Shown here: positions 168 to 9,173 of the stretch, piece by piece | Layout of the letters: the number at the start of each line of letters is the position of its first letter | Position numbering within the stretch: position 1 is the first letter of the stretch | Source: Catalinimonas alkaloidigena | GTDB taxonomy: Bacteria; Bacteroidota; Bacteroidia; Cytophagales; Flexibacteraceae | Reading direction: 5' to 3' | Assembly: GCF_900100765.1 (NCBI RefSeq) | Contig: NZ_FNFO01000007.1 | Span: 248,001 to 312,000 of the forward strand | DNA length: 64,000 nucleotides | Translations under genes and position numbers: made by a program | Notes under the pieces: generated by a model | The model's input: only the letters and a program-made list of their open reading frames with translations | Told to the model about the DNA's origin: nothing | Databases searched by the model: none

Positions 168-740
168 TTAATTTCTGCTTAACGAATTGGCGCTGAGGGC
201 TTCCAGTTCTTCCAAGAAGGTTTCGGTACGCCGCTTCGACTTGGAAATGGAGACGCGGGCCGACTGCACGAACTCGATCAGGCCGAACGGCTTCAACTCT
301 TCGTACAGCTGCCGGATCTCCTGCCGCATGCCGGTTTTCTCGATGATCACGTACTCGCGCTCGATCACCAGCACCCGCGCAAAGTGGCGACGAATCATGG
401 TTTCGACCCGGTTGCCGTTCATAAACACTTCCAGCGGCACGCGGTAGAGCGCCATTTCCTGAAAATGCGTCTCTTCTTCTTCGTACAGGAACGCACCCAG
501 TACGTCAATGACGCGCCGAATCTGCTTCACCAGTTTCTCGGCCCGTTCGCGCGTCATTTTCACGACGATCGTGTAGCGGCTCACGCCGGCCACTTCCGTC
601 TCCGACACGTTGATGCTGTCGATGTTGATTTTGCGGCGGGTGAAGATGATGGTGATGGCATTGAGCAGACCGCTCCGGTTTTCGGTCAGGACCGAAATGA
701 TAAACGTGCGTTCCGGGTCGTGGTGTCCGTTGCTTTGCAT
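168..740 (-). CDS. ilvN: Acetolactate synthase small (regulatory) subunit
   Basis: A protein of 190 residues. Residues about 12-85 form an ACT domain (FIISVLTENRSGLLNAI, then an INIDSINVSETE segment), the valine-binding module that gives feedback inhibition of acetolactate synthase. The C-terminal half fits the small-subunit C-terminal domain that contacts the catalytic subunit. It follows ilvB by 69 bases and precedes ilvC, the usual Bacteroidota order. The length is slightly above the common 160-180. Function is secure from sequence and operon position; which amino acid it senses is inferred from the family. Confidence 0.95.
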   Translation of the reverse strand: MQSNGHHDPERTFIISVLTENRSGLLNAITIIFTRRKINIDSINVSETEVAGVSRYTIVVKMTRERAEKLVKQIRRVIDVLGAFLYEEEETHFQEMALYRVPLEVFMNGNRVETMIRRHFARVLVIEREYVIIEKTGMRQEIRQLYEELKPFGLIEFVQSARVSISKSKRRTETFLEELEALSANSLSRN

Positions 741-809: not shown

Positions 810-2591
810 CTACTCCAGTAAAATATCGACCACAGAAGCACCCGTCGGTACCATCGGGAAGACGTTTTCCTCCTGTTCGACGACCACTTCCAGCAAGTAA
901 GGACCGTTGTGGTCCAACATGGTCTGGAGGGCGCCTTTAATGTCTTCGCGGGCTTCCACTTTTTTCGATTCGATGCTGAACGCCTGCGCAATGGCTACGA
1001 AGTTCGGGTTGATCATCTCGGTTGCCGAATAGCGCTTGTCGAAGAACAGCTGCTGCCACTGGCGGACCATGCCGAGGAAGCTGTTGTTGAGGATGACGAT
1101 CTTCACGGGCACTTCGAACTGGAAGATCGTGCCCAGCTCCTGCAACGTCATCTGAAAACCGCCGTCGCCGATGATGGCCACCACTTCGCGCTGCGGGTTG
1201 CCGATTTTTGCACCGATGGCTGCGGGCAGCGCAAAGCCCATGGTGCCCAGCCCGCCCGACGTGATGTTGGTGCGCGGAAACTTGTACTGGTAGTACCGTG
1301 AGGCCGCCATCTGGTGCTGACCTACGTCGGTGACCGTGATGGCCTCGCTGTGGGTCATTTCCGAAATCAGGTTGATCACTTCCGGCATGCGCAGTTTTCC
1401 GGCGGTCGGGTGAACGGACCCCTGTACCACCTTTTCGTGCTCGATTTTATCGCAGGCACGGAACTCAGCGAGCCACTCGTGGTGAGTACGCTGTTCGACC
1501 AGCGGCAGCAATCCCTTCAGCGCCGCTTTGGCGTCGGCATTGATCGCCACCGTGGTCTTCACGTTCTTGTCGATCTCGGCCGGGTCGATCTCGATATGGA
1601 TCAATTTGGCCTGCTTGGCGTAGCGGCTCAGGTCGCCGGTGACCCGGTCGTCGAAACGCATCCCCACCGCAATCAGCACGTCGCATTCGTTGGTCTTGAT
1701 GTTGGGGCCATAATTGCCGTGCATGCCCAGGTAACCCACGTACAGTTCGTGGTCGGTCGGAAACGCCGACAGGCCCAGGAGGGTAGAAGCAACAGGAATG
1801 CCCGTCTTCTCGACAAACGTGCGGAACTCGTCTTGCGCTTCCGAAATCAGCACCCCCTGGCCGACCAGGATGTAAGGCTTTTTGGCCTCGTTGATCAATT
1901 GGGCGGCTTCTTCCAGGCATTTCGGGTCGGCCTTCGGATAGGGCGCGTAGCTGCGGATTTTTTCACACTTCTTGTAGGTGAAGTCGAACGCGGCAAACTG
2001 CGCATCTTTCGTGATGTCGATCAGAACTGGTCCCGGACGCCCCGAACGGGCGATGAAAAAGGCGCGGGCGATGATTTCCGGAATTTCTTCGGCGTTGGTG
2101 ATCTGGCAGTTCCACTTCGTGACCGGCATGGAAATGCCCAGCACGTCGGTTTCCTGGAATGCATCCGTGCCCAGCAGATGCGAAGCCACCTGGCCGGTGA
2201 TGCAGACCAGCGGCGTCGAATCGATTTGCGCGTCGGCCAGCCCGGTAATCAGGTTGGTGGCCCCTGGCCCCGACGTGGCAAAGCAAACGCCCGGTTTGCC
2301 GGTGGCGCGGGCGTAACCCTGGGCGGCGTGGGTAGCGCCTTGTTCGTGCCGTACTAAATAGTGGCGAAGGCGATCCTGGTACCCGAACAGGGCATCGTAA
2401 ATGGGCATGATGGCCCCACCAGGGTAACCAAAAATGGTGTCGACCCCTTCTTCCAGCAGAGAGAGGAGCACTGCTTCGGCTCCGGTGACGCGCACGGGCT
2501 TGGTCGCGGTCGGCATAGACGAGGTCGGCTTCGCGGAAGACTGCGCATCCGTCTGAGCCGCCATAATGTCAGATGAGGCTGGGTTTTTCAT
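810..2591 (-). CDS. ilvB: Acetolactate synthase large (catalytic) subunit
   Basis: A 593-residue thiamine-diphosphate enzyme that condenses two pyruvates, or pyruvate with 2-oxobutyrate, as the first common step to valine, leucine and isoleucine. Visible signatures are [14 protein letters not shown] near residue 57, the catalytic-glutamate stretch [20 protein letters not shown], and the ThDP/Mg motif GDGGFQMTL at 475-483 followed by the NN of VILNN. The first 30 residues are a low-complexity Ser/Ala/Thr-rich extension that most homologues lack; the true start may be an internal Met. Its start overlaps the end of ilvD by 23 bases, which suggests coupled translation. Confidence 0.97.
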
Positions 2592-4275
2592 GGGGAATTT
2601 CGGTTGATGATAGATCAGTTACACACCCTTTCGCGGCCGAAGAGACCATCCGGGCGTACTTGTACAAAGCGCCGCTCTGGGCTTTGAGGGGAGGAGGCGA
2701 CCACCGCGCGCGACGCTCGGCCAACTCTTCCTCCGACAGTTTGACTTCTATTTTATTAGAACGAGCATCAATTTCGATCAGGTCGCCGTCTTCGACGAGG
2801 GCGATGGTACCACCGACCTGCGCTTCCGGGCTGACGTGCCCAACTACGAAGCCGTGGCTTCCGCCGGAAAAGCGCCCGTCGGTGATCAGCGCCACGTCCT
2901 TACCGAGGCCCGCGCCCATAATGGCCGATGTCGGCTTGAGCATTTCGGGCATGCCGGGGCCGCCCTTCGGACCTTCGTAGCGAATCACCACGACGTTGCC
3001 CTTTTTCACCTTGCCATTGCCGATGCCTTCAATGGCCGCAAACTCGTCGTCGAACACAATGGCCGGCCCTTCGAACCGCTCGCCTTCCTTGCCGGTGATT
3101 TTGGCAACAGCCCCTTCTTCGGCGAGGTTCCCGTAAAGAATTTGCAGGTGCCCTTCGGGTTTGATCGGGTTCTCGATCGGCAGGATGATCTTCTGATCGG
3201 CCGGCAGGTCGGGTGCTTCCTGTAAATTTTCTTCTACCGTTTTGCCGGTGACGGTGAGGCAGTCGCCTTTCAGGAAGCCTTTCTGCAAGAGGTACTTCAT
3301 GACGGCAGGCGTACCGCCGATCGACGGCAGGTCTTCCATCAGGTATTTGCCGCTGGGCTTCAAGTCACCGAGGAGCGGCGTCCGGTCGCTGATCGCCTGG
3401 ATCTTGCTGAGGGTCAGCGGCACGTTGGCACTGTGCGCCATCGCCATCAGGTGCAGCACCGCGTTGGTAGACCCCCCCAGCGCCATCACCACCGTCAGGG
3501 CATTCTCGAACGCCTCGAGCGTCATGATGTCCAGCGGCTTGATGTCTTTTTCGAGCAGAAGGCGCATGGCCGCGCCAATATTCCGGCACTCTGCCTGTTT
3601 TTCGGCACTTATGGCCGGGGAAGACGAGCTGTGCGGCAACGACATGCCCATGGCCTCGATGGCCGACGACATGGTGTTGGCGGTGTACATCCCACCGCAG
3701 GCACCCGCCCCGGGGCAGGCGTTTTTGATCACGCCCTTGTAATCTTCGTCCGAGATGGTGCCGGCAAACTTCTCGCCCAGCGCTTCGAATGCCGAGATAA
3801 TGTTCAGCTTGCGGTCTTTCCAGCAGCCGGAATGAATCGAGCCGCCGTAGAGCAGAATGCCCGGGCGGTTCAGGCGGGCCAGGGCAATCATGGCACCCGG
3901 CATGTTTTTGTCACAGCCCACCACCGTCACCAGGCCGTCGTAGTAGTGTGCGCCCGTCACCGCTTCGATGGAGTCGGCGATGATTTCGCGCGACAGCAGC
4001 GAGTAGCGCATGCCCGCCAGGCCGTTCGAAAGGCCGTCGCTTACGCCGATGGTATGGAAAATCAGACCGACCAGATCGCTGGCCTGTACGCTCGCTTTGG
4101 CCTGCAGGGCCAGCTCGTTGAGGTGCATGTTGCACGTATTGCCCTCGTACCCGGTGCTCACAATCCCCACCTGCGCCTTTTGCATGTCTTCGTCCGTCAG
4201 ACCAATGCCATAAAGCATGGCCTGCGAGGCGGGTTGGGTGGGGTCTTGGGTGAGCTGGCGGCTGTAACGATTCAT
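2569..4275 (-). CDS. ilvD: Dihydroxy-acid dehydratase
   Basis: A 568-residue member of the IlvD/Edd family, which dehydrates 2,3-dihydroxy acids to the 2-oxo acids of valine and isoleucine. The iron-sulfur cysteines are in CDKNMPG and [16 protein letters not shown], and the C-terminal [14 protein letters not shown] motif is present. Length is normal. It is the first structural gene of the leftward ilv operon; 93 bases separate its ATG from the leader-peptide stop codon, and that gap holds an attenuator hairpin. Its 3' end overlaps ilvB. Expression is therefore predicted to depend on branched-chain aminoacyl-tRNA supply. Confidence 0.97.
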
Positions 4276-4296
4276 AGAATGCGGTTAGAATTAGGT

Positions 4297-4335
4297 GAAA
4301 ATAAAATGCCTTTCTCGCTGAAGGTGAGAAAGGCA
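4297..4335 (-). terminator. Attenuator (intrinsic terminator) in the ilv leader
   Basis: On the minus strand TGCCTTTCTC (4335-4326) and GAGAAAGGCA (4316-4307) form a perfect 10-bp stem with a 9-base loop, followed by TTTTATTTTC (4306-4297). This is a complete intrinsic terminator placed between the leader peptide and ilvD, so it would abort transcription of the operon unless an alternative fold forms. Confidence 0.85.
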
Positions 4336-4360
4336 CTCGATAGTTTCATATGGTATAGGC

Positions 4361-4373
4361 TGCCCTCCTCACC
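4361..4373 (-). promoter_or_regulatory. Antiterminator strand overlapping the leader-peptide stop codon
   Basis: The minus-strand sequence GGTGAGGAGGGCA is complementary over 13 positions, two of them G-U, to TGCCTTTCTCACC at 4335-4323, which is the 5' arm of the attenuator. The two pairings exclude each other. The strand contains the leader peptide's TGA, so a ribosome that finishes the peptide covers it and lets the terminator form, while a ribosome stalled on upstream Ile/Val/Leu codons leaves it free to antiterminate. Confidence 0.75.
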
Positions 4374-4425
4374 CCGTTTGGGGAATGACCACGACGATAA
4401 TGAGAAGGACGAGGCTACGTAGCAT
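4369..4425 (-). CDS. ilv operon leader peptide
   Basis: An ORF of 18 codons encoding MLRSLVLLIIVVVIPQTG, in which 10 of the 13 residues from Leu2 to Ile14 are Leu, Ile or Val, the three products of the pathway encoded downstream. The ATG is at 4425-4423 and the stop TGA at 4371-4369. It lies between a good Bacteroidota-type promoter and the attenuator hairpin. The composition, position and overlap of the stop codon with the antiterminator make it a regulatory leader like IlvL/IlvB leader peptides of Enterobacteria, although unrelated in sequence. The peptide itself probably has no function after translation. Confidence 0.85.
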   Translation of the reverse strand: MLRSLVLLIIVVVIPQTG

Positions 4426-4483
4426 AGTTTCTAAAAAGAGTTCCCGCTTGTGGGCTCATAGAACCTTTGTTCTGATGAGAGCG

Positions 4484-4491
4484 CAAAGCTA
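4484..4491 (-). promoter_or_regulatory. Promoter -7 element of the ilv leader
   Basis: TAGCTTTG on the minus strand matches the Bacteroidota primary sigma -7 consensus TAnnTTTG. TTTTG runs that could serve as the -33 element lie at 4517-4507. Transcription would begin near 4477, about 50 bases before the leader-peptide ATG. A small AGAAC/GTTCT hairpin sits in between (4460-4473). Confidence 0.6.
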
Positions 4492-4883
4492 AACAATACT
4501 TTCTGTCAAAATCAAAATTTCATATAATTTTTTTGGTAAGACGAGTGCCTGGACAAATGATCTAACATCCAAAAGTCGGAATGCAGTGAGATAGGCGGGT
4601 TATAGTAAAAAGCGTTCATGAATTTTTATTATTTCTGTTGCCCGAACCGAATTATTTGCCCTATTTTGCCTGTTCAATACCTTTTGGGCCACCAATTCAT
4701 CCCCATTGTGCTGCCGATATGCGTATCGTTTACCCCGTACTGGAATTCCGACTTACGGACTGGTCTTTCGCTGGATAGCCTAGCAGCAACCGGCGCAAAG
4801 CCCTATTTTTGTGTCCTTTTTACGCAGCACCTTTTATCTTTCCTTACTTTAGTGTAGTCAAGCATCCGTAAACCCCTGGATTT
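4492..4883. other. Divergent ilv/leu intergenic region
   Basis: This AT-rich stretch separates the ilv promoter from leuA. On the plus strand TATTTTTG at 4804-4811 could be the leuA -7 element, but I see no clear -33 partner. No leader peptide rich in Leu codons and no terminator hairpin is visible on the leu side, so the leu operon does not appear to share the ilv attenuation mechanism. Confidence 0.4.
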
Positions 4884-6056
4884 ATGAGTGAACGCATTTA
4901 TATATTCGATACCACCCTGCGCGATGGCGAACAGGCTCCGGGCTGTCAATTGAATACCGACGAGAAAATTACTGTAGCCCAGGCCCTCGAACAACTGGGG
5001 GTAGATGTCATTGAGGCCGGCTTTCCCATTTCCAGTCCCGGCGATTTCCAGTCGGTTGTTGCCATTTCGAAGGCGGTGAGCCAGCCCATCATTACTGGCC
5101 TTTCGCGGGCGGTCGAAAAAGACATTGATCGCGCTGCCGAAGCGCTTCAGTACGCCAAGCGTCCGCGCATCCATACCGGCATCGGAACCTCTGACCAGCA
5201 CATTATTAATAAATTCCGCACCACGCGCGAGAAAGTACTGGAACGAGCAGTAGCTGCGGTGAAGCACGCCAAGAAGTACGTGGAGGACGTAGAATTTTAT
5301 GCGGAAGATGCCGGACGGACCGAAAACGAGTGGCTGGCGCAAGTGCTCGAAGCGGTGATCAAAGCCGGTGCTACAGTGCTGAACATTCCGGATACGACCG
5401 GCTTTTGCCTGCCTGACGAATACGGTGCGAAAATTCGCTTTCTGCGCGAAAACGTGAAAGGCATCGACAAGGCCATCATCTCGGCCCATTGCCACAACGA
5501 CCTGGGATTGGCCACGGCCAACGCCATTGCTGCCGTACAAAACGGCGCGCGGCAAATCGAGTGTACCATCAACGGTGTCGGCGAGCGAGCCGGCAACACC
5601 TCGTTAGAAGAAGTTGTGATGGCGTTCAAGAAACGGGCGGCTGCATTGCCGTATCATACCCACGTCAACTCCACGCGCCTGTACCCGACCAGCCAACTGG
5701 TTTCCAGCCTGATGGGCATGCACGTGCAGGCCAACAAGGCCATCGTCGGCCGGAATGCGTTTGCCCACTCGTCGGGCATTCACCAGGATGGGGTGATCAA
5801 AAATCGCGAGAATTACGAAATCATCGATCCGCAGGAAGTCGGCGTCGGGGAGTCGGTCATCGTGCTGACGGCCCGGAGCGGTCGCGCTGCCCTGCACTAC
5901 AACCTGCAAAAAATCGGCGTAGACCTGACCAAAGAAGAGCTGGAAGTGGCCTACGAACATTTTCTGCAACTGGCCGATCAGTTAAAAATTGTGCAGGACC
6001 AGCACCTGCGCCAAATGGTAGAAGAACTGGCCGCCAAATCCACGATCAAAGTCTAA
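4884..6056 (+). CDS. leuA: 2-isopropylmalate synthase, short form without regulatory domain
   Basis: A 390-residue HMGL-like TIM-barrel enzyme that condenses acetyl-CoA with 2-oxoisovalerate in the first step of leucine synthesis. The N-terminal [17 protein letters not shown] signature and the metal-binding [10 protein letters not shown] near residue 200 are present. Canonical LeuA proteins are about 510-570 residues and carry a C-terminal leucine-binding domain; this one ends after the barrel and helical subdomain. Citramalate or homocitrate synthase activity cannot be excluded from sequence, but the following leuCDB genes favour LeuA. It is the first gene of the leu operon, divergent from ilv. 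Confidence 0.9.
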
Positions 6057-6065
6057 TATACCCGT

Positions 6066-7493
6066 ATGTCTGCCCGTACATTATTTGATAAAATCTGGGA
6101 TCGGCACGTCGTCAAATCCATCGAAGACGGTCCCGACGTGTTGTACATCGACCGTCACTTCATTCACGAAGTGACCAGTCCACAGGCTTTTGCCGGGCTG
6201 GAGCGCCGGGGCATTTCCGTGTTCCGTCCGCAACAGACCATCGCCACGGCCGACCACAACGTTCCTACCAAAGACCAGCACCTCCCGATCCGCGAACTGC
6301 TTTCGCGGCAGCAGGTCGACAAGCTCACCGAGAACTGCGCCAACCACGGTATCGAACTCTACGGACTCAACCACCCTTTTCAGGGCATTGTCCACGTCAT
6401 CGGGCCGGAACTGGGCATCACCCAGCCGGGCATGACCATCGTGTGTGGCGACAGCCATACGTCGACACACGGGGCGTTTGGCGCGATTGCCTTCGGCATC
6501 GGGACGAGCGAGGTAGAACAAGTACTGGCGACGCAGTGCATCCTGCAGGCCCGTCCGAAGCGGATGCGCATCACCATCGACGGCGAACTGGCACCGGGCG
6601 TCACGTCCAAAGACATTATCCTCTACATCATCTCGCAGATTTCGGCCAGCGGCGGCACGGGCTACTTTGTGGAATACGCCGGTTCGGCCATCCGCAGCCT
6701 GAGCATGGAAGCGCGCATGACGATATGCAACATGAGCATCGAAATGGGGGCGCGTGGCGGCATGATTGCACCGGACGAAACCACGTTTGACTACGTACGC
6801 GGCCGGAAATTCGCGCCTCAGGGTGAGGAACTGGAGAAAATGATCGCCTACTGGAAGACGCTGCCCACCGACGAAGGAGCGGCGTTCGATACCGAACTCC
6901 ATTACCGTGCGGAAGATATTCCTCCGATGATCACTTACGGGACCAATCCCGGCATGGGCATCGCCATCGATGGTACCATTCCTGCGGCCGAAGGGGTAGA
7001 GAACGAAGCCGAACGCGCCTCGTTCAGAAAAGCGCTTCAGTACATGGGCCTGGAATCGGGCGCGAAACTGCTGGGCAAACCGATCAGTTACGTATTCATC
7101 GGCAGTTGCACCAACGCCCGCATTGAAGACCTGCGTCAGGTTGCCGCCTTGGTCAAAGGCAAGCAGAAAGCCGAGAACGTCAACGCCATGATCATTCCGG
7201 GATCGAAGCAAGTCGAACTGCAGGCACGCGAAGAAGGGCTGGACCGGATTTTTGCGGAGGCAGGCTTCGAACTGCGCCAACCGGGTTGTTCGGCCTGTCT
7301 GGGCATGAATGAGGACAAAGTGCCGAAAGGCGAGTATTGTGTCTCGACGTCGAACCGGAATTTTGAAGGCCGCCAGGGACCCGGCGCGCGTACGCTGCTG
7401 GCGAGTCCGCTGACCGCCGCCGTGACCGCATTGAATGGGTACATCAGCGATGTGCGCGAAGTATGGGCCGAACAAACACTTGCTAATGGATAA
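6066..7493 (+). CDS. leuC: 3-isopropylmalate dehydratase large subunit
   Basis: A 475-residue aconitase-family protein that with LeuD isomerises 2- to 3-isopropylmalate. The three cluster-ligating cysteines are visible in [10 protein letters not shown] and [12 protein letters not shown], and the N-terminal [19 protein letters not shown] motif is intact. Length is normal. It starts 9 bases after leuA and overlaps leuD by 8 bases, so the two subunits are probably translationally coupled. Confidence 0.97.
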
Positions 7494-8067
7494 GTTTCAA
7501 AAACTGGTGTCGACCATCGTGCCGATGCCGATTCGCAATATCGATACCGACCAGATCATTCCGGCGCGTTTCCTGAAAGCCACCACGCGCGAGGGTTTCG
7601 GCGATAACCTGTTCCGCGACTGGCGCTACAACGAAGAGGGCAATCCCAAGGCCGATTTTGTGCTGAACAACCCGGCCGTGCAAGGCGACATTCTGGTAGC
7701 CGGCAAAAACTTCGGGTGCGGTTCGAGCCGCGAGCACGCCGCCTGGGCCATTCACGACTACGGTTTTAAGGTGGTGGTGTCGAGCTTTTTTGCTGACATT
7801 TTCAAGAATAACGCGCTGAACAACGGCCTGTTGCCTGTGCAGATTTCTGACGAGTTTCTGGACTTCATCTTCGAGCAGTACGATGCTAATCCTGCGTTGC
7901 AGCTCGAAGTAGACCTGGAAGCGCAGACGATTGCGGTGCTGGGCGCAGGTCGCCAGGAGTCGTTCGAGATCAATTCCTACAAGAAATACTGCCTGCTTAA
8001 CGGCTACGACGACATCGATTATCTGCTGAGCCAGAAATCGGCAATCGAAGCGTACGAGCAGCACTAA
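7486..8067 (+). CDS. leuD: 3-isopropylmalate dehydratase small subunit
   Basis: A 193-residue aconitase swivel-domain protein. It has the family motifs [14 protein letters not shown] near the N-terminus and [13 protein letters not shown] near residue 70. I chose the ATG at 7486, inside the last codons of leuC, because the family begins MDKFQKL-like at this point; the longer frame upstream only shadows leuC. It forms the heterodimer with LeuC. Confidence 0.96.
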
Positions 8068-8090
8068 GTTTATTCCCTTCTTACGTATTC

Positions 8091-9173
8091 ATGCAAAAAC
8101 ACATCGCGGTACTGCCCGGCGACGGCATCGGGCCGGAAGTGACGGAGCAGGCCCTGGAGGTGCTGAAAGCGGTCGAACAGGCATTCGGGCACCAGTTTTC
8201 CTACACGCACGCCCTGGTGGGCGCGGCGGCCATTGACGCAACCGGTAATCCATTTCCTCCGGAAACCGAACAGGCCTGTCGGGAAGCCGACGCCATTCTG
8301 TTTGGTGCTATTGGTCACCCCAAATACGACAACGATCCAAAGGCCAAAGTGCGTCCTGAACAGGGACTGCTGGCCATGCGCCGGAAATTAGGGTTGTTTG
8401 CCAACCTGCGCCCGGTGCAGAGCTATCCGGCTCTGAGTGACATGTCGCCCCTGAAAAACGATCGCCTGGAAGGCGTTGATCTGGTCGTGTTCCGGGAGCT
8501 GACCGGCGGCATTTACTTCGGAGAGCCGCGCGGCCGCAGCGAAAACGGCGAATCGGCGTTCGATACGTGTTTGTATTCCAAAGCAGAAATCGAGCGCATT
8601 GCCAAACTGGCGTTCGAAGCAGCACAGCGCCGTCGGAAAAAGTTAACGCTGGTCGACAAGGCCAACGTGCTGGCTACCTCGCGGTTGTGGCGTGAAACGG
8701 TCAAAGCCATGGCGCCTGCATATCCGGACGTGACGCTCGACTTTATGTTTGTCGACAACGCGGCCATGAAGCTGATCCAGCAACCCGCGTACTTCGACGT
8801 GATCGTAACGGAAAACATGTTCGGCGACATTCTGACCGACGAGGCATCGGTGATTACCGGCTCCCTGGGTATGTTGCCTTCGGCGTCGGTAGGCGACCAA
8901 GTGGCGCTGTTCGAGCCCATCCACGGTTCGTATCCGGAAGCGGCAGGTCAGTCGCGTGCCAACCCCATGGCCGCGATTTTGTCTGCTGCGATGTTGCTCG
9001 AATATGCCTTTGGCATGGCCGAAGAGAGTCAGGCCATCAATCAGGCAGTCGAACAGGTACTGGCCGAAGGGTTCCTGACCGAAGATCTGAACCGCACGAA
9101 TCCGCAGACCACGCAGGCCGTAGGCAGTCGCATTGCTGCTTTGGTCAAAGAATCGGTCGCCGCGAAAAACTGA
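8091..9173 (+). CDS. leuB: 3-isopropylmalate dehydrogenase
   Basis: A 360-residue NAD-dependent decarboxylating dehydrogenase. It has the AVLPGDGIGPEV start, the substrate-loop ELTGGIYFGEPRG near residue 140, and the metal/NAD region NMFGDILTDEASVITGSLGMLPSA, of which the DILTDE core is diagnostic. The C-terminal EPIHGSYPEAAGQ motif is also present. It is the last gene of the leuACDB operon and is followed within 22 bases by a strong hairpin terminator. Confidence 0.97.
   Translation: MQKHIAVLPGDGIGPEVTEQALEVLKAVEQAFGHQFSYTHALVGAAAIDATGNPFPPETEQACREADAILFGAIGHPKYDNDPKAKVRPEQGLLAMRRKLGLFANLRPVQSYPALSDMSPLKNDRLEGVDLVVFRELTGGIYFGEPRGRSENGESAFDTCLYSKAEIERIAKLAFEAAQRRRKKLTLVDKANVLATSRLWRETVKAMAPAYPDVTLDFMFVDNAAMKLIQQPAYFDVIVTENMFGDILTDEASVITGSLGMLPSASVGDQVALFEPIHGSYPEAAGQSRANPMAAILSAAMLLEYAFGMAEESQAINQAVEQVLAEGFLTEDLNRTNPQTTQAVGSRIAALVKESVAAKN

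Follow-up and report, generated by a model that had tools for sequence, protein, structure and literature searches.

Background

Control of ilv operons by leader-peptide attenuation is classical in enterobacteria, in which a leader rich in codons for branched-chain amino acids (BCAA) is combined with the alternative stems 1:2, 2:3 and 3:4. Rare leucine codons were reportedly described in the Salmonella leu leader by Carter et al. in 1986, and candidate attenuators in Bacteroidetes/Chlorobi are said to have been mentioned by Vitreschak et al. in 2004 (FEMS Microbiol Lett). The enterobacterial operons ilvGMEDA and ilvBN are listed among the attenuated ones (PMC1183508), and ilvB motifs based on upstream ORFs (uORFs) have been reported for Corynebacterium and others (PMC10272879). 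According to a statement of 2010, such systems had, to its authors' knowledge, been demonstrated in no phyla other than Proteobacteria and Actinobacteria before their own finding in Firmicutes (PMC2965389).

For Bacteroidota, the long 5′ UTRs of B. thetaiotaomicron have drawn a remark on small ORFs (sORFs) (PMC7366714). The original prediction for the locus described here held that ilv attenuation lacked a detailed description in this phylum. This stands for a detailed account of an ilv attenuator, of which none was found in the open literature, where such control is briefly mentioned; it does not hold for attenuation in general, since leader-peptide attenuation had already been inferred upstream of amino-acid operons of Flavobacterium psychrophilum (PMC9723704), and the "Bacteroid-trp" motif (RF01692) had been listed for Bacteroidetes (PMC2864571).

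Organization of the ilvD leader region

The window, that is, the whole 64-kb stretch of Catalinimonas alkaloidigena DNA that was analysed, contains upstream of ilvD an element that is very probably a ribosome-mediated transcription attenuator of the ilvDBNCA operon. Its parts and the genes that follow are listed below.

4491-4484, minus strand: promoter element TAGCTTTG, Bacteroidota-type −7 (TAnnTTTG), recognized from the sequence
4425-4369, minus strand: leader peptide ORF MLRSLVLLIIVVVIPQTG, ATG at 4425 and TGA at 4371-4369, 18 residues, from translation
4410-4400, minus strand: region 1, within codons V6-I10, pairing with region 2 (4372-4362) as a candidate protector stem, from the minimum free energy (MFE) fold
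4375-4361, minus strand: region 2, GGGGTGAGGAGGGCA, purine-rich and spanning the leader TGA, 5′ strand of the antiterminator
4335-4326, minus strand: region 3, 5′ arm of the terminator, with antiterminator pairing extending into the loop, to approximately 4321
4316-4307, minus strand: region 4, 3′ arm of the terminator, perfectly complementary to region 3 over 10 bp
4306-4298, minus strand: U-tract TTTTATTTT of the intrinsic terminator, recognized from the sequence
2569-4275, minus strand: ilvD, dihydroxy-acid dehydratase (TIGR00110, 727 bits, above cut-off), first gene after the leader
810-2591, minus strand: ilvB, acetolactate synthase large subunit (TIGR00118, 731 bits, above cut-off), overlapping the end of ilvD
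168-740, minus strand: ilvN/ilvH, acetolactate synthase small subunit (TIGR00119, above cut-off)
Same contig beyond the window, same strand: ilvC and ilvA (TIGR00465 and TIGR02079, both above cut-off)

The promoter-like sequence of the original prediction was found as TAGCTTTG; the minus strand has no further TAnnTTTG from 4201 to 4700, and from this element the leader RNA is predicted to start near 4477. Of 30 loci, 9 had TAnnTTTG in the 110 nt preceding the leader ATG, compared with 3.0 expected. Codons for Ile, Val or Leu make up 11 of the 18 in MLRSLVLLIIVVVIPQTG (L2, L5, V6, L7, L8, I9, I10, V11, V12, V13 and I14). The Leu codons include CTA and CTT, which account for 1% and 5%, respectively, of the Leu codons in seven genes counted, and the common CTG (62%) is absent.

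Positions 4373-4361 (GGTGAGGAGGGCA, with the TGA inside) and 4335-4323 (TGCCTTTCTCACC) are complementary at 13 positions, two of them G-U, and the 2:3 pairing grows to 15 bp by two further G-U pairs; the computed energy of the duplex of regions 2 and 3 is approximately −26 kcal/mol. The terminator TGCCTTTCTC-ACCTTCAGC-GAGAAAGGCA (4335-4307) forms a perfect 10-bp stem with a hairpin energy of −16.9 kcal/mol. Thus far the coordinates, the ORF, the strand carrying the stop codon, the 13-position pairing and the perfect hairpin with its U-tract agreed letter for letter with the prediction. The MFE fold of the leader consists of two main stems, 1:2 and the terminator 3:4, and the leader RNA had a folding z of −4.15, equalled by none of 200 shuffles. 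The 1:2 stem, in which codons V6-I10 pair with region 2, is an addition, being absent from the prediction.

The genes ilvD-B-N-C-A, each scoring above its curated NCBIfam cut-off, follow one another on a single strand, overlapping or separated by short gaps, and would form a single transcript. Their products make Ile and Val, in agreement with the leader codons. Between the leader stop and the ilvD ATG at 4275 there are 93 nt. This distance bears on the possibility that another leader-dependent route, such as Rho access or reinitiation of ribosomes at ilvD, is dominant and the hairpin secondary. Reinitiation acting over short distances after leader genes has been proposed in Bacteroidetes, with a peak at 11–14 bp (PMC4833913), but the spacing at this locus is far past that peak, an intrinsic terminator with U-tract is present and the antiterminator has been kept. 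Dominance of such a route is therefore highly improbable.

Across the common intergenic region, a divergent leuA-leuC-leuD-leuB run (window positions 4884-9173) lies opposite the ilv operon. A leucine leader was looked for before this leuA and was not found. Searches before hisG or homoserine dehydrogenase genes gave no attenuator-like composite in the stretches covered (for one homoserine dehydrogenase locus, L116, the upstream region lies outside its stretch). Additionally, a candidate tryptophan leader was observed in the same genome (locus L113, contig C5, reverse-strand 1303-1409), directly 5′ of trpE. It starts with ATG AAT TGG TGG TGG (MNWWWHGGILPSVNRHSMA) and is followed 20 nt later by a terminator hairpin with U-tract, and then by trpE. 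No Rfam match was obtained for this trp leader, the Bacteroid-trp model included. With this candidate, attenuation seems to be used in the genome for more than one operon.

Chance expectation and recurrence in relatives

In the window, 501 ATG-started ORFs of 10–30 aa were counted, of which MLRSLVLLIIVVVIPQTG alone had a share of Ile, Leu and Val of 55% or more. The composite of a BCAA-rich sORF followed by a terminator occurred once in the 64 kb, both strands considered. Dinucleotide shuffles of region 2 paired equally well with the terminator arm in 2 of 5000 cases. When 2414 segments were tiled on both strands of the window, one outpaired region 2 on arm 3, and this segment is probably the complement of the terminator hairpin itself.

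Among the ten other genomes of the window's family, ilvD was absent from all, and ilvB gave weak or distant matches at best, one being clear though distant. Because ilvD is missing there, conservation can be compared only from the order level upward. The genome containing the window is 7.1 Mb, with the whole ilv pathway kept or regained.

A first sample consisted of the 110 ilvD loci, that of the window among them, whose upstream sequence could be used. A BCAA-rich, ATG-started sORF followed by an intrinsic terminator was found in 63 of them, in 30 cases no more than 500 nt from ilvD and in 33 at a greater distance upstream; shuffled sequences gave 0–1 of 110 and 0–2 of 80. The distant composites were mostly 1–1.3 kb upstream of ilvD and apparently stand before ilvE, the intervening ORF being ilvE-like by eye where inspected. 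Records bearing the composite were labelled as Flavobacteriaceae genera, Chitinophagaceae, Saprospiraceae, Cyclobacteriaceae, Runella, Pedobacter and an Ignavibacteriae MAG, some MAG labels being doubtful. As a second sample, 60 more genomes from Bacteroidota were examined; the composite was present in 22, compared with none in shuffles, and 17 of these 22 matches belonged to a single family (f42) outside the window's class. Roughly 40% of the loci in the first sample, and 60% of the genomes in the second, lacked a strict match. The conservation expected in ilvD upstream regions of relatives was thereby borne out, with BCAA-rich sORFs and competing stems recurring well above shuffled controls.

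These counts bear on a simpler explanation, in which the hairpin would separate the divergent leuA and ilvD units as an ordinary terminator or insulator, the short ORF having arisen by chance. Terminators between transcription units are common, and so are small ORFs in the window. However, leuA points away, and the minus strand has no close upstream gene needing a terminator; the composition of MLRSLVLLIIVVVIPQTG is unique among the small ORFs of the window, and a BCAA-rich sORF with terminator precedes ilv genes in dozens of genomes but is hardly ever seen in shuffles. We consider this explanation very unlikely.

Two further observations were made on the leaders of the relatives. The variant in f42 is strongly conserved (17 genomes, L127-L150; e.g., MLSTVISLVIIRVIGISYRSGKAIC) and has an extra small hairpin, in most cases GGTAT...ATACC, that separates the codon run from region 2. 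Many leaders have, after the I/V run, a Pro and then a Gly-rich end (IIPALNGGG, IIPAYGGG; L020, L027, L029, L039, L043 and L068). The Gly codons overlap region 2, and the Gly-rich motif may therefore reflect a constraint on RNA rather than on the peptide.

Pairing between arms of the same locus

Pairing was tested in 60 non-redundant loci, which are not 60 independent events since related loci share arms. In these, 18–43 nt (median 26) separated the leader stop codon from the start of the terminator, and region 2 was situated at this codon (median −9 to +4). Pairing energies with the locus's own partner and with swapped partners were as follows.

2:3, own partner: mean −14.3 kcal/mol; swapped partner: −9.4 kcal/mol
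3:4, own partner: −18.2 kcal/mol; swapped partner: −8.5 kcal/mol
1:2, own partner: −15.6 kcal/mol; swapped partner: −13.2 kcal/mol, the weakest effect among the three

After removal of row and column effects, the observed mean was reached by 0 of 5000 permutations for each of 2:3, 3:4 and 1:2. Compared with dinucleotide shuffles, the 1:2 stem was not beyond expectation (mean z −0.55). Within f42 (17 loci), arms 2 and 3 are almost invariant, so that covariation gave no information. Competing stems, whose absence from close relatives the original prediction would have counted against itself, thus occurred with pairings that go with their own partners while the sequences differ.

A functional hydrophobic micro-protein as the product of the leader ORF, with incidental RNA pairing, is hardly credible: the peptide is hydrophobic, as are many small membrane proteins, but across genomes it is mainly the I/L/V composition that is kept while peptide sequence and length vary, and region 2 matches the terminator arm of its own locus, which is needless for protein function.

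Folding with the ribosome in position

Folding was computed with the ribosome as a mask, using the RNA 3′ of its front edge and ending just before arm 4. Over the 60 loci, the mean probability of arm 3 being sequestered by upstream sequence was 0.74 with the ribosome stalled in the I/L/V run and 0.11 with the ribosome at the stop. Switching was observed in 48 of 60 loci, compared with 9–18 when region 2 was shuffled. At the window locus, the value was 0.86 for stalls at codons 2–14 and 0.09 at the stop, placing the switch in the fold between codon 14 and the stop; these values were little altered for front edges of 10–17 nt. With the ribosome left out, the model still favours 2:3 at the window locus until arm 4 exists (0.78). 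In full equilibrium folds including arm 4, the antiterminator was preferred in 12 of 60 loci (control 0–2). The terminator wins in most loci once arm 4 exists, indicating that the switch depends on kinetics. The mutually exclusive parts ascribed to the attenuator from the single sequence are consistent with both this switching and the preference of 2:3 for its own partner.

Proposed mechanism and its distribution

The locus has the marks of an attenuator: a BCAA-rich ORF, an intrinsic terminator, an antiterminator strand covered at the stop, and recurrence in relatives. Recurrence across Bacteroidota and the own-partner pairings, both read from genome sequences, argue for attenuation as first proposed. 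We infer that the leader ORF would be translated, that transcription would actually terminate at the hairpin and that the element would respond to amino acids. RNA polymerase would start near 4477 and make a leader of approximately 180 nt, with a ribosome trailing on the leader ORF. With ample charged tRNA for Ile, Val and Leu, the ribosome would reach the TGA and cover region 2, so that the 3:4 terminator could form before ilvD. When one of the charged tRNAs is short, the ribosome would stall in the L/I/V run, covering region 1 and leaving region 2 free; the latter could then capture region 3 before polymerase has transcribed region 4, and read-through into ilvDBNCA would follow.

We lean slightly towards the view that leader-peptide attenuation is widespread, and possibly ancestral, in BCAA synthesis of Bacteroidota, standing before the first gene, ilvD or ilvE, and missing from RNA family libraries; this view draws on several families in the class of the window and on at least one from another class. 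If true, it may explain how isoleucine and valine synthesis is controlled in a large phylum, and would imply that ribosomes follow close behind RNA polymerase in Bacteroidota. The leaders would become natural reporters of transcription-translation coupling, which is little studied there, and annotators gain a recognizable small ORF that is usually left unannotated. The comparative set allows the mechanism to be tested directly, and a descriptor model could be derived from it.

Comparison with known systems

Scanning positions 4100-4900 against Rfam, with its leader, T-box and riboswitch families, gave no match near any gathering score, and scanning 20 related loci gave only a tRNA. Bacteroid-trp (RF01692), although from the same phylum, differs in that its model fails to match the ilv leader. 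The attenuators of F. psychrophilum resemble the Catalinimonas leader in phylum and in their association with amino-acid biosynthesis operons, and the accessible text of PMC9723704 gives no detail of an ilv leader. The ilvB motifs share with it a short BCAA-rich uORF, proposed attenuation and acetolactate synthase genes, and ilvB-II also has a terminator and an antiterminator; they stand before ilvB in Corynebacterium, "various phyla" and Leptospira, whereas the Bacteroidota leaders stand before ilvD or ilvE and have no RNA-level match in Rfam. The likeness to ilvGMEDA and ilvBN, with their leaders ilvL and ivbL, lies in the BCAA-rich leader, the alternative stems 2:3 and 3:4, with 1:2 as a candidate, and the intrinsic terminator before ilv genes. 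Unlike these, the Catalinimonas leader is in another phylum, leads straight into ilvD, has a TAnnTTTG promoter and matches no Rfam leader family. The mechanism proposed is classical; what is new, judged from sequence analysis, is a well-supported example in a phylum in which such control is poorly documented.
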